From: Hyphomonadaceae bacterium BL14
GTDB taxonomy: Bacteria; Pseudomonadota; Alphaproteobacteria; Caulobacterales; Maricaulaceae
DNA: 64,000 nt
Direction: 5' to 3'
Assembly (NCBI GenBank): GCA_027627705.1
Contig: CP091242.1
Location: 879,765-943,764 of the forward strand
The translations under genes were made by a program, and so were the position numbers. The notes below the pieces were generated by a model. The model had not been told where the DNA came from and did no database searches. It was given only the letters and a program-made list of their open reading frames with translations. Positions 4,756 to 18,643 of the stretch are shown here, piece by piece; the stretch's first letter is position 1; every line of letters starts with the position of its first letter.

Positions 4756-7700
4756 GCGGCGTCGCGGGCGCGCCTCGCCGCATCCGCGATCGGCGCCAGC
4801 AGGCGCTGCACGCCCTTGAGGCGGTCGATGATCTCCGGGAAATCGCCCCGCAGCACGATGGAATTGTCCGGGCGCAGCTTGTAGTCCAGCGGCCGGCGCG
4901 TCATCAGATCCACCAGAGCGGCCGGATCGGCGAAGGCGTGCTCGCGGAAGGTCGCGACCGCGCCCTTGGGCCCGGCGTCCAGCTTGGACACCCCGGCGCG
5001 CTTGCACAGACCCTTGATGGCGACCACCTGCATCAGGCTCTCCACCTCTTCAGGCAGCGGGCCGAACCGGTCGATCAACTCGGCGGCGAAGCCTTCGCGT
5101 TCAGCCTTGGTCTCCAGCCCCGACAGGCGGCGGTAGAGCGCCATGCGCACGTCCAGATCGGGCACGTAATGGTCCGGGATCAGCACCGCGGCACCCACAT
5201 TGATGGCCGGCGACCAGTCGCGATTGTCTTCCGGGGCCTGCCCCTGCAGCGAGGCGACGGCCTCTTCGAGCATGGCCTGATACAGCTCCACTCCCACATC
5301 GCGGATATGGCCCGACTGCTCCTCGCCCAGCAGATTGCCGCCACCGCGCAGGTCCAGATCATGGCTGGCCAGCGTGAAGCCCGCGCCCAGATTATCCAGC
5401 GATTGCAGAACTTTGAGCCTCTTGTCCGCGCCTTCGGTCATGGACTGGTTGGCGGGCGTGGTCAGATAGGCGTAGGCGCGCGCCTTGGAGCGGCCGACCC
5501 GTCCGCGCAGCTGATAGAGCTGGGCCAGGCCGAACCGGTCGGCGCGGTGGACGATCAGTGTGTTGGCGGTGGGAATATCGATGCCGGATTCCACGATGGA
5601 GGTGGACACCAGAACATCGTACCGGCCCTCGTAGAACGCCGTCATGATGTCTTCCAGCTGGCTGGCCGCCATCTGGCCATGAGCCAATGTGAAGCTGACT
5701 TCGGGCACCTGCTCGCGCATGAAGGTGGCGATCTCGTCGAGATCGGTGATGCGCGGTGCCACAAAGAAGCTCTGACCGCCCCGGTAGCGTTCGCGCAGCA
5801 GCGCCTCGCGCACGGTCACCGGATCAAACGGCGTCACATAGGTTCGCACCGCCAGGCGGTCGACGGGGGGCGTCGCGATGATGGTCAGATCGCGAATGCC
5901 CGACATGGCCAGCTGCAGCGTGCGCGGAATCGGCGTGGCGGTCAGCGTGAGCACGTGCACGTCGGTGCGCAGCTCTTTGAGCCGCTCCTTGTGCTTGACC
6001 CCGAAATGCTGCTCCTCGTCGATGATCATCAGGCCCAGCGATTTGAACTCGATAGTCTTGGCCAGCAGGGCGTGTGTCCCCACGACGATGTCGCATCGCC
6101 CTTCGGCCAGGTCCTTGCGTGTCAGTGCGGCGTCCTTGGCCGGGACCAGCCGCGACAGCTGGCGCACCTGGACCGGCCAGCCGCGGAATCGCTCGGCAAA
6201 CGTGGAATAGTGCTGGCGCGCCAGCAGAGTCGTGGGCGTGACCACCGCCACCTGACGCCCGCTCATGGCGGTGATGAAGGCCGCGCGCAGGGCGACCTCG
6301 GTCTTGCCGAAGCCGACGTCGCCACAGATCAGCCGGTCCATCGGACGGCCCTTCTTGAGGTCCTCGAACACATCCTCGATGGCGCTGAGCTGGTCGTCGG
6401 TTTCCGCAAAGGGGAAGCGCGCCGCGAACTCGTCATACAGGCCGGACGGGGCCTCGATCACCTCGGCGTCCCGCGCATTGCGGGCTGCAGCGATGCGGAT
6501 CAGCTGGTCAGCCATATCGCGCAGGCGCTTCTTGGCCTTGGCCTTGCGCGCCTGCCAGGCCGCGCCACCCAGCCGGTCCAGCTGCGCGGTCTCGCTGTCA
6601 GCGCCATAGCGCGACAACAGTTCGATATTCTCAACCGGCAGGTAGAGCCGAGACTCCCCGGCATATTCAAGCTCCAGGCAGTCATGGGGCGCGCCGGTCA
6701 CGTTCAGGGTTTTGAGGCCCATATATCGGCCCAGACCATGATCGGCGTGGATGACCAGGTCGCCGGGGGTCAGCGCGCCGGCTTCGGCGATGACATCGCT
6801 GGCCTTGCGGCGCTTGCGCGGCCGGGCGAGGCGGTCGCCCAGAACATCCTGCTCGGAAATGACGACGAAATCGGGCGTTTCAAACCCGTGTTCCAGCGGC
6901 ATGACGATGCGCGCAATGGCTTTGCCGGGCAGGCGCAACGCCTCGTCCCAGCTGCCTACGGCTTGAACCGGCGACAGTCCATGTTCACCCAGAACGCCAC
7001 CCAGGCGCTCTGATGCCCCCTCGCTCCAGCTGGCGAACAGAACCCGCTTGCCAGTCTGGCGCACGCTGGCGGCGTGCCGCGCGGCAGCTTCAAACACGTT
7101 CTGGTCGCCCTGCCGCTCGGCGGCGAAGCTGCGGCCCTGCTTGCCGCCCGCGTCCAGCACGTGCTCGCCGGGTTCCTGAAAGCTGGTGAAGCGGCGCACC
7201 GAGCGCGCGCCCAGCGCCGCCTCCCACTCGTCTTCATCCAGGAACATGGCTTTGGGTTCAATGGCGCGATAGGCCGGCGCGCCCATGGCCCCGGCACCGG
7301 ATTTCTGGGCCTCCTGGCGGGCCTCGTAATAGTCCCGAACCAGTTCCAGCCGCTCTTCCAGCGCGGGCCGTGCCAGCGGATCGAGGCCGATCAGCGCGTC
7401 TTTGCCCGCATAATCAAAGACCGTGTCGAGATGATCGTGGAACAGGGGCAGCCAGTGCTCGGCTCCGGCCGGGCGGGCCCCGGCGCTGACCGCGTCATAG
7501 ACAATATCGCCTGATCCGGCCGCGCCGAAACGCTTCAGGAACCCGGTGCGGAAGCGCGAGATCGCGGCGGCGTCCAGCAGAACTTCACTGACCGGCGTGA
7601 ACCGGACTGCCTTGAGCTGGCGTGTGGTGCGCTGGGTTTCGGGATCGAAGGCGCGCACGCTTTCCAGGCTGTCACCGAAGAAATCCAGGCGCACCGGCTC

Positions 7701-16613: not shown

Positions 16614-16623
16614 GGCTAATCGC

Positions 16624-17481
16624 TTAGCGCTCGAACTTGAGCCGTAGTGGCTTGGTGTGCCAAACTACGTGCTTGATGTTCCTGATTGCGGACTTTTCGT
16701 GCCGCCTTGTGGTGTTTGCTACGCAGAAGAACAAATATTCGCCAAAATCTAAGATTCCTCTTATTTCAATAAGGTTTGCTTGCGCATTTGATTTCGAAAT
16801 CACACTTTGATGATCCGAATTTTGAAAGTGCGGAACCAATGTTGTTATAACGTCATTTCCGTAAAATGACCTTACCCTCATCACCATCATTGAATGAAGA
16901 TCATCAATCGAATCGTTATTTTTACTTTTCAACCAAAAACCTACATACATGAAATTGGTGTGGTACAACGCACTCTCGAACGAGTGTGTGATAGGATACA
17001 TAACTGCTGGACCCAACCCGTAGCGCGTACTGTCTATCACCCACGCAAATGGAGCAAGGAGTAGCGCGCCAGCACCCCCTGCATGAGGGATCCCGAACGC
17101 GCCTTGAAATTGACTGAGCTGTGTGGGCGAAAGGATTTCCAATTCAATGTTGCTGGAAAGGCTGGAAACCCGCTCATAGGCCGCGTCCGTATACCCCTTA
17201 TTCGTAACAATTATAAATCTGTCGCAGCCAATATCTTCAGCCATACCAATGGCGGATTCAACTGTTTTAATGCTAACCTTCTTATTATAATATTTGCAAT
17301 CTATCGCCGATATTATTTTATCAGTTCCAAATTTTTCAACGACGCAGACATCCACTTCTCTAACTATTTTTGATGTTTTGCCAGCCACCTTTGCATTCTT
17401 GGTGACAGTAGCACCGGGAAGCTTGAAACAGATTTCTTCATAAATGTAGTTTTCATAGTCACGCCACGTTCGAATATCCAT
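16624..17481 (-). CDS. Mrr-like PD-(D/E)XK endonuclease with an unknown C-terminal domain, A+T-rich
   Basis: 285 residues. The N-terminal domain (about 1-120) has the type IV restriction/Mrr fold: an early glutamate pair (YIYEEI, E15/E16), REVDVCVVEK with D44, and the IDCKYY core (D61-C-K63), then KTVESAIGMAEDIGCDRFI and VTNKGYT, the block seen in Mrr_cat-type nucleases. The C-terminal part (about 121-285) is not recognised; it has aromatic strands and a basic end (WHTKPLRLKFER). The start MDIRTWRD at 17481 has GAGGGG 8 bases upstream. Base composition is unlike its surroundings (15 G/C in 60 bases at 17281-17340) and codons are A+T-rich, a strong sign of recent transfer. It sits 16 bases after the phosphotransferase gene on the same strand. 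Confidence 0.85.
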   Translation of the reverse strand: MDIRTWRDYENYIYEEICFKLPGATVTKNAKVAGKTSKIVREVDVCVVEKFGTDKIISAIDCKYYNKKVSIKTVESAIGMAEDIGCDRFIIVTNKGYTDAAYERVSSLSSNIELEILSPTQLSQFQGAFGIPHAGGAGALLLAPFAWVIDSTRYGLGPAVMYPITHSFESALYHTNFMYVGFWLKSKNNDSIDDLHSMMVMRVRSFYGNDVITTLVPHFQNSDHQSVISKSNAQANLIEIRGILDFGEYLFFCVANTTRRHEKSAIRNIKHVVWHTKPLRLKFER

Positions 17482-17497
17482 CACGTGCGCCCCTCGC

Positions 17498-18556
17498 TCA
17501 CGCCCTCTCCGCAATGCTCCACGCATAATCGGCCATCGGCGCCACCAGCGCGCCCAGCTCCTTGGCCCGCTCATTCGAGGCATTGCCCTGCACCGAGCGC
17601 GCATATACGCCCTGGGCGATGCCGGCCAGGCGGAAGATGTTGTAGACAAAATAGAAATCGAGATTCTCGATGCCGTCGCGTCCGGTGCGGCGGCAATAGG
17701 CGGCCACGTATTCATCTTCGGTGGGGATGCCAAGCGCCTTCAGGTCCACGCCGAGAAAGCCGGAACGGATTTCCTTGGGCGTGCGCCACTGCATCAGCTG
17801 GTAGGTGAAGTCGGCCAGCGGGTCGCCCAGCGTGGATAATTCCCAGTCCAGTACCGCGATGACGCGCGGCTCGGTGGGGTGGAAGATCATGTTGTCGAGG
17901 CGATAATCGCCGTGGACCACGCTGATGCGCTCCTGCGCCGGCGCATGGGCGGGCAGCCATTCGATCAGCCGGTCCATGGCGGCGATGGGCGTGGTCTCGG
18001 CAGCTTTGTACTGCTTGGTCCAGCGTGCGATCTGGCGCTCGAAATAATTGCCCGGACGGCCATAGTCAGACAGCCCCGCCGCCTCCACGTCGATGGCGTG
18101 CAATTGCGCCAGCGTGGCGTTGGACGCGTCGTAGAGCGCGGCACGCTCGGCCGGCGCCAGATCGGGCAGATAGGCGTCCCAGAATATCCGGCCCTCGACA
18201 AAATCCATCACGTAAAACGCCGTGCCGATGACGCTTTCGTCCTCGCACAGCGCATGCATGTGCGGGGCGGGGAAACCCTGCCCGCCCAAGGCCTTCATCA
18301 CCTGATATTCGCGTTCGACCGCATGGGCCGAGGGCAGGAGCTTGCCCGGCGGCTTGCGGCGCAGGACATAAGAATGACGCGGCGTGGTCAGCTTGTAGGT
18401 GGGGTTTGACTGACCGCCCTTGAACTGCTCGACGGTGAGCGGTCCGGCAAAGCCCTCCACATGCTGGTCCATCCAGTTTTCCAGCGCGCGCTGGTCGAAT
18501 TTCAGCGCGTCGGCGACCGCCTTGGTGCCGGAAAACGCGTCATCAAGCTGGGACAT
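17498..18556 (-). CDS. APH-family phosphotransferase (ACAD10/11-like)
   Basis: 352 residues. Kinase-like fold with the Brenner motif HGDYRLDN (H215-N222) and the metal-binding DWELSTLGDPLADF (D237). The sequence FKGGQSNPTYKL and the pattern of the N-lobe match the aminoglycoside-phosphotransferase-like kinases that sit near acyl-CoA dehydrogenases and act on 4-hydroxyacyl-CoA, rather than antibiotic resistance enzymes. The start at 18556 (MSQLDD) has AGGAG 9 bases upstream; the longer open frame adds an unlikely leader. Substrate is inferred only. Confidence 0.85.
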   Translation of the reverse strand: MSQLDDAFSGTKAVADALKFDQRALENWMDQHVEGFAGPLTVEQFKGGQSNPTYKLTTPRHSYVLRRKPPGKLLPSAHAVEREYQVMKALGGQGFPAPHMHALCEDESVIGTAFYVMDFVEGRIFWDAYLPDLAPAERAALYDASNATLAQLHAIDVEAAGLSDYGRPGNYFERQIARWTKQYKAAETTPIAAMDRLIEWLPAHAPAQERISVVHGDYRLDNMIFHPTEPRVIAVLDWELSTLGDPLADFTYQLMQWRTPKEIRSGFLGVDLKALGIPTEDEYVAAYCRRTGRDGIENLDFYFVYNIFRLAGIAQGVYARSVQGNASNERAKELGALVAPMADYAWSIAERA

Positions 18557-18643
18557 GCGGGCAGTCTCCTGAGCAGGCGGCAAAACGGAGCGGCGTCCGG
18601 CGTGCAGTTCACCCGGTTCGGACGCCCGCCTCAAGGGCGATGG

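Follow-up and report, generated by a model that had tools for sequence, protein, structure and literature searches.

An Mrr-type nuclease fused to a Mog1/PsbP-like domain: a single-gene insertion and candidate defence effector in Hyphomonadaceae bacterium BL14

A 64,000-nucleotide stretch of the Hyphomonadaceae bacterium BL14 genome (contig CP091242.1, positions 879,765 to 943,764; hereafter the window, meaning the whole stretch) carries a short A+T-rich gene. It encodes a protein of two domains, an Mrr-type PD-(D/E)XK nuclease and a C-terminal domain of predicted Mog1/PsbP-like fold (Table 1). The gene is wedged between two host genes. A gap of 16 bp separates its start from the stop of the upstream APH gene (17498) on the same strand, and a gap of 10 bp separates its stop from that of the convergent gene (16613). 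The G+C content is 0.43 versus 0.666 for the window, falling to 0.25 over 17281-17340, and the G+C content at third codon positions (GC3) is 0.46 versus 0.82 and 0.80 in the two neighbours. When the window was scanned in 858-bp stretches at 10-bp steps, none overlapping the gene, the lowest G+C was 0.60 and no stretch was as low as the gene itself. No mobile-element gene, transposase or partner is attached to it at this locus. An earlier sequence-only reading of this DNA had claimed the same gene limits, gaps, composition and solitary position, and in all of these it was correct.

Table 1. Features of the nuclease locus, in window coordinates
Feature	Coordinates	Strand	Remarks
Nuclease gene	16624..17481	-	285 amino acids + stop, ATG start; Mrr_cat nuclease fused to Mog1/PsbP-like C-terminal domain
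PD-(D/E)XK (Mrr_cat) domain, residues 5-126	17104..17469	-	
Predicted active-site codons	17293..17454	-	E10 17452-17454; D44 17350-17352; D61 17299-17301; K63 17293-17295
C-terminal domain, residues 127-285, predicted Mog1/PsbP/DcrB/Eag fold	16627..17103	-	Structure comparison
APH-type phosphotransferase host gene, upstream, same strand	17498..18559	-	PF01636, E 8.3e-59
Convergent host gene, 138 amino acids	16197..16613	+	Open reading frame; convergent neighbour
Inserted segment	16615..17498	.	GCT at both ends (16615-16617, 17496-17498); visual comparison with empty sister-genome junctions

The nuclease domain was recognized by the Mrr_cat model (PF04471), which matches residues 41-114 at E 1.3e-8 with 35.4 bits against a cut-off of 21. 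The core residues D44, D61 and K63, already picked out by the sequence-only reading, were confirmed, and E10 in the first helix joins them in the predicted active site. The window protein keeps all four. In an alignment of 121 proteins that includes the window's, no sequence departs from E10, D44 or K63, and position 61 is D in 120 and E in one. Mrr_cat was also matched at E <= 1 by all 17 members of the family alignment A2 described below. A search of PDB sequences with the single protein gave nothing useful (one match, at E 0.75), and a profile search of the PDB gave none.

The C-terminal domain, left unassigned by the sequence-only reading, was assigned by structure. It begins at about residue 127, and its predicted form has the fold common to the solved Mog1/PsbP-like members. 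Among the named structures of the group that was matched, most are PsbP-type, Mog1, cell-envelope, Eag or immunity proteins, and identity to the matched structures is 4-14% in the first 37 rows of the comparison. No Pfam or NCBIfam model of the Mog1/PsbP/DcrB/Eag type was matched by the window protein or the 17 members, and DcrB/DUF1795 is absent from the 13 families that these members match at E <= 1. A search of viral folds yielded a single match under 1e-3, to a phage lipoprotein. Residues 124-152 of the window protein, and of no other among the 17 members, weakly match phrog_27500 (E 6e-4), a PHROG family whose function is not annotated. A sensing role would be compatible with this fold, some members of which bind proteins. 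For the modified base or the nucleotide that had been proposed as the sensed molecule, nothing was found that speaks for either.

Comparison with sister genomes supports the insertion of one foreign gene, recently acquired, between two ordinary genes. The APH protein is present in 14 of the 15 genomes of the genus, BL14's own included, and the nuclease gene was found at none of the 13 sister loci. In eight of these (L036, L037, L039, L041, L043, L045, L047 and L048) the APH and convergent genes lie end to end. Measured against the empty site of L037, whose APH protein is 96% identical, the inserted segment is 881 bp with one GCT copy counted; the 3-bp repeat at its ends may be chance. At L044 about 1.3 kb with two other open reading frames lies between the two genes, and at L038, L040, L042 and L046 the convergent gene falls outside the fetched stretch (about 0.9 to 1.5 kb). 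Searched for directly at E <= 0.001, the nuclease turned up in none of 14 same-genus genomes and in none of 46 other relatives. Because the sister genomes have an empty site and all 14 same-genus genomes lack the gene, its acquisition is taken to be recent, and the transfer that the sequence-only reading proposed stands.

Two further ideas about the site were not retained. Integron capture was dropped by eye, the stop codon being less than 10 bp from the junction and no GTT core being present at the joints. A defence hotspot is unsupported; genus members carry near the APH gene a TetR plus DoxX-like pair, an enolase-like gene or a TonB-receptor-like gene (names read from sequence). In two of these genomes (L042 and L044, positions 1-1500) the APH gene adjoins genes for a TetR-like regulator and a DoxX-like membrane protein, and at L044 the pair sits between the APH and convergent genes, in the intergenic site that holds the nuclease in the window. 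The convergent gene had been called DUF4345-like, a name that is not supported; it has no Pfam family at E <= 1, and its one match is a sub-threshold NCBIfam hit (E 3e-6) to AGROH133_08824, a model named phage infection protein family.

The fusion of an Mrr_cat nuclease to a Mog1/PsbP-like domain recurs in several bacterial phyla. Four relatives came from the first sequence search: two are full length and 72-73% identical, and two have the nuclease only. Scanning contigs with a four-row alignment gave 15 loci, at 25-37% identity in the best segment, from Pseudomonadota, Bacteroidota, Nitrospirota, Acidobacteriota, KSB1, TA06 and other phyla. Fourteen of them, all with both domains, entered A2 and the tree; L016 was left out because part of its sequence reads N. 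A profile search reached at least 268 proteins at E <= 1e-5. Among the 121 that were aligned, 50 have 360 residues or fewer and 70 have 400 or more, and many of the longer proteins are annotated with tetratricopeptide repeats (TPR). The Vibrio member's C-terminal domain, used as query, retrieved 403 proteins; Mrr_cat is present in 117 of the best 120, and the other three (280, 194 and 213 amino acids) have no noted Pfam domain. The tree places the window protein with its two relatives in a group of their own (support 100/100, branch 2.45), and joins the Vibrio member to a Bacteroidetes member (100/98).

The family is thinly spread. Full-length matches were found in one of 289 genomes of the window's class, which is the window genome itself, in three of 395 in the phylum of G348 and in two of 369 in the class of G346 (both source genomes included). 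Nuclease-only matches added two further genomes in the first of these last two groups and three in the second. G348, a Paludibacter metagenome-assembled genome, carries two family paralogues, L020 and L026, whose open frames span 290 and 475 codons. No relative was found in the phage collection or in viral contigs, and none at the DNA level in E. coli genomes with the Vibrio homologue as query. Matches on Mucilaginibacter and Rhizobium plasmids cover the nuclease only and were rejected. A Vibrio alginolyticus plasmid gene (L056) was also dropped, its C-terminal part aligning unconvincingly with the Mog1/PsbP domain. This short Mrr-like endonuclease gene (5956-6738) lies in an array of small genes with repeated DUF3265 frames, which also carries a putative phage abortive infection protein.

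Twenty homologue loci (L002, L004-L018 and L049-L052) were inspected for their neighbours, and about seven have defence-type or nuclease genes close by. Two loci have three-gene rows. On the Sulfuricurvum plasmid pSULKU03 (L002) a DUF4062 protein and a second protein precede the Mrr-Mog1 gene, with gaps of 5 and 15 bp. At the Paludibacteraceae locus (L012) the Mrr-Mog1 gene comes after a relative of the L002 second protein and an HNH protein; the gaps are 82 and 11 bp. Between the two second proteins identity is 22% over 284 residues (E 3e-16). A C-terminal region is common to the DUF4062 and HNH proteins (32% over 87 residues, E 1e-12), and therefore the front effector of the row looks exchangeable. 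The HNH protein matches PADLOC candidate models and effector models of the cyclic-oligonucleotide-based anti-phage signalling (CBASS) type (best E 2.4e-30). In an all-against-all comparison of neighbours, shared partners appeared at no loci but L002 and L012. Further defence-type or nuclease genes are GmrSD near L018, PD-Lambda-1 adjoining L052, an HNH protein adjoining L010, and type I or IIG restriction genes at L002, L009 and L016, the assignments at L009 and L016 being inferred.

The second protein of these rows belongs to a weakly HEPN-/LprI-like family that recurs on plasmids beside different genes (L002 7029-7988; L012 8129-9094; L053 4956-5900; L054 4872-5816; L055 4719-5795). It lies next to a DUF4062 or HNH protein together with the Mrr-Mog1 protein, to a trypsin-like gene in Neorhizobium, or to helicase-nuclease-like genes in Ensifer (the last two named by eye from sequence, as are the L004 neighbours below). 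It may be a shared toxin partner.

What the analysis establishes is the predicted folds of both domains, the invariance of the active-site residues, the existence of the family, the insertion as a single gene and the two gene rows; a nuclease activity of the window protein, its gating, a ligand and an anti-phage role are what we infer. The favoured reading, to which we give a probability of roughly 0.6, is a defence effector complete in one protein that moves horizontally, its nuclease gated by a Mog1/PsbP-fold domain. The metal-dependent nuclease would be controlled by the C-terminal domain through binding of a protein or peptide ligand. At rest this domain would keep the nuclease inactive or untargeted. 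An infection-specific ligand would then engage it, and the nuclease, released or directed, would cut invader or host DNA. Some lineages carry a TPR-type arm behind the binding domain. At two loci the protein is part of a row of three genes together with the weakly HEPN-like protein and a second effector candidate, either the TIR-like DUF4062 or the HNH protein. The window copy probably rides on transcription of the upstream host gene.

Several observations weigh against this reading. Ligand binding is argued from the predicted fold alone, and a shared fold proves no function. K63 is kept in 16 of the 17 A2 members and lost in L017, the window protein reads YPIT where YQRG is conserved elsewhere in the family, and its subfamily is long-branched and without residues conserved in the others. 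About 13 of the 20 loci have only ordinary or unassigned neighbours, such as the methionine-synthase-like and FKBP-like genes at L004. The label HEPN-like is a weak one because in L002 HEPN_RiboL-PSP reaches 22.7 bits, short of the Pfam cut-off of 28.4, and in L012 it is absent, the second protein there matching only LprI. The window protein matched no PADLOC model at E <= 1; among the 17 members, 14 have weak matches to the PADLOC candidate PDC-S02 (best E 1.3e-6). A scan of 94 neighbour proteins matched 95 families of the defence library, 25 of them among the matches listed, and the 72 control proteins from 12 stretches of the same genomes matched the library too. Among the control matches listed, 22 of 25 families are GajB (UvrD helicase) models, the rest being PDC-S22, RTasHel and mad3. 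Enrichment beside defence genes is therefore not established, and the gene neighbourhoods are suggestive of it. The intact core, the lack of a partner or transposase at the locus and part of the neighbourhoods support the stand-alone defence gene of the sequence-only reading; the remaining loci and the control, which was not clean, do not, and the gene itself proved to be a divergent member of a family of at least 268 proteins. The observations of that reading were confirmed and its interpretation was partly supported.

A different role for the C-terminal domain would make the protein a type IV modification-dependent restriction enzyme. This domain would then read a modified base or other DNA feature itself, no protein ligand would be involved, and cleavage would fall to the Mrr domain. 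Mrr_cat is common to Mrr-type enzymes, the gene stands alone, and weak matches to the PADLOC mREase_IV models occur in three and one of the 17 members. However, the matched fold is not among the base readers SRA, YTH, EVE and winged helix, and the matched structures are mostly of the kinds named above. E. coli Mrr has an N-terminal winged-helix DNA-recognition domain before its catalytic domain; in the window protein that domain is absent, the catalytic domain runs from residue 5 and the Mog1/PsbP-fold domain is C-terminal. We consider this explanation improbable. Equally improbable is a nuclease with a cellular job, for example cutting branched or damaged DNA, that was acquired by chance and has no defence role; the family is sparse and mobile, and the two gene rows contain HEPN-like and DUF4062 or HNH proteins. 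Least likely is a partner subunit of a larger system left over as a solo copy, as the three-gene rows and the partnerless, long-branched window copy might suggest, since that copy retains its four active-site residues and an open frame, its two relatives at 72-73% identity are also full length, and the all-against-all comparison of neighbours showed shared partners in the two rows only.

Mrr-type nucleases and sensor-nuclease fusions are already known. With the Mrr_cat restriction endonucleases (PF04471) the window protein shares the nuclease domain and its E10/D44/D61/K63 site at an above-cut-off score. From the Mog1/PsbP/DcrB/Eag (DUF1795) group its second domain differs by the nuclease fusion and by matching none of the group's sequence models. 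In Can2, Card1 and other sensor-plus-PD-(D/E)XK effectors the sensor is a CARF domain, where the window protein has Mog1/PsbP. The literature search, which covered few subscription papers, found no pairing of an Mrr-type nuclease with Mog1/PsbP; a described relative is possible in the DefensePredictor data, where PD-(D/E)XK domains occur in 13 of 31 additional validated systems (PMC13092281). The only other defence protein with a Mog1/PsbP-like domain in that search was BrxP/SspD, a PAPS reductase with a cysteine-rich region and a Mog1p/PsbP-like (DUF1795) domain whose role its authors call unclear; the passage concerned mentions no nuclease fusion (PMC12839542). In Swarozyc, described in a 2026 preprint, DUF4062 is the TIR-like NADase of an anti-phage system, is activated by the phage portal protein and was tested in a one-protein form (PMC13174449). 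The Sulfuricurvum row also holds a DUF4062 protein; the window protein and its two flanking genes have no DUF4062 match at E <= 1.

The Mog1/PsbP fold is also that of DcrB and of the transmembrane-helix chaperones of type VI secretion systems. A wider picture, tentative and rather doubtful as it stands, is that these proteins are one-gene immune effectors found across phyla, in which a Mog1/PsbP-fold infection sensor would capture an exposed hydrophobic or structural phage protein on behalf of the PD-(D/E)XK nuclease, and which may also have been assembled into modules of three genes whose TIR-like NADase and HNH effectors can replace one another. If the favoured reading is true, one more sensor fold would be added to those of bacterial immune nucleases, the family, with its homologues in several phyla, would offer a compact and directly testable candidate of one gene, and Mog1/PsbP-like domains would gain a testable role in immunity.
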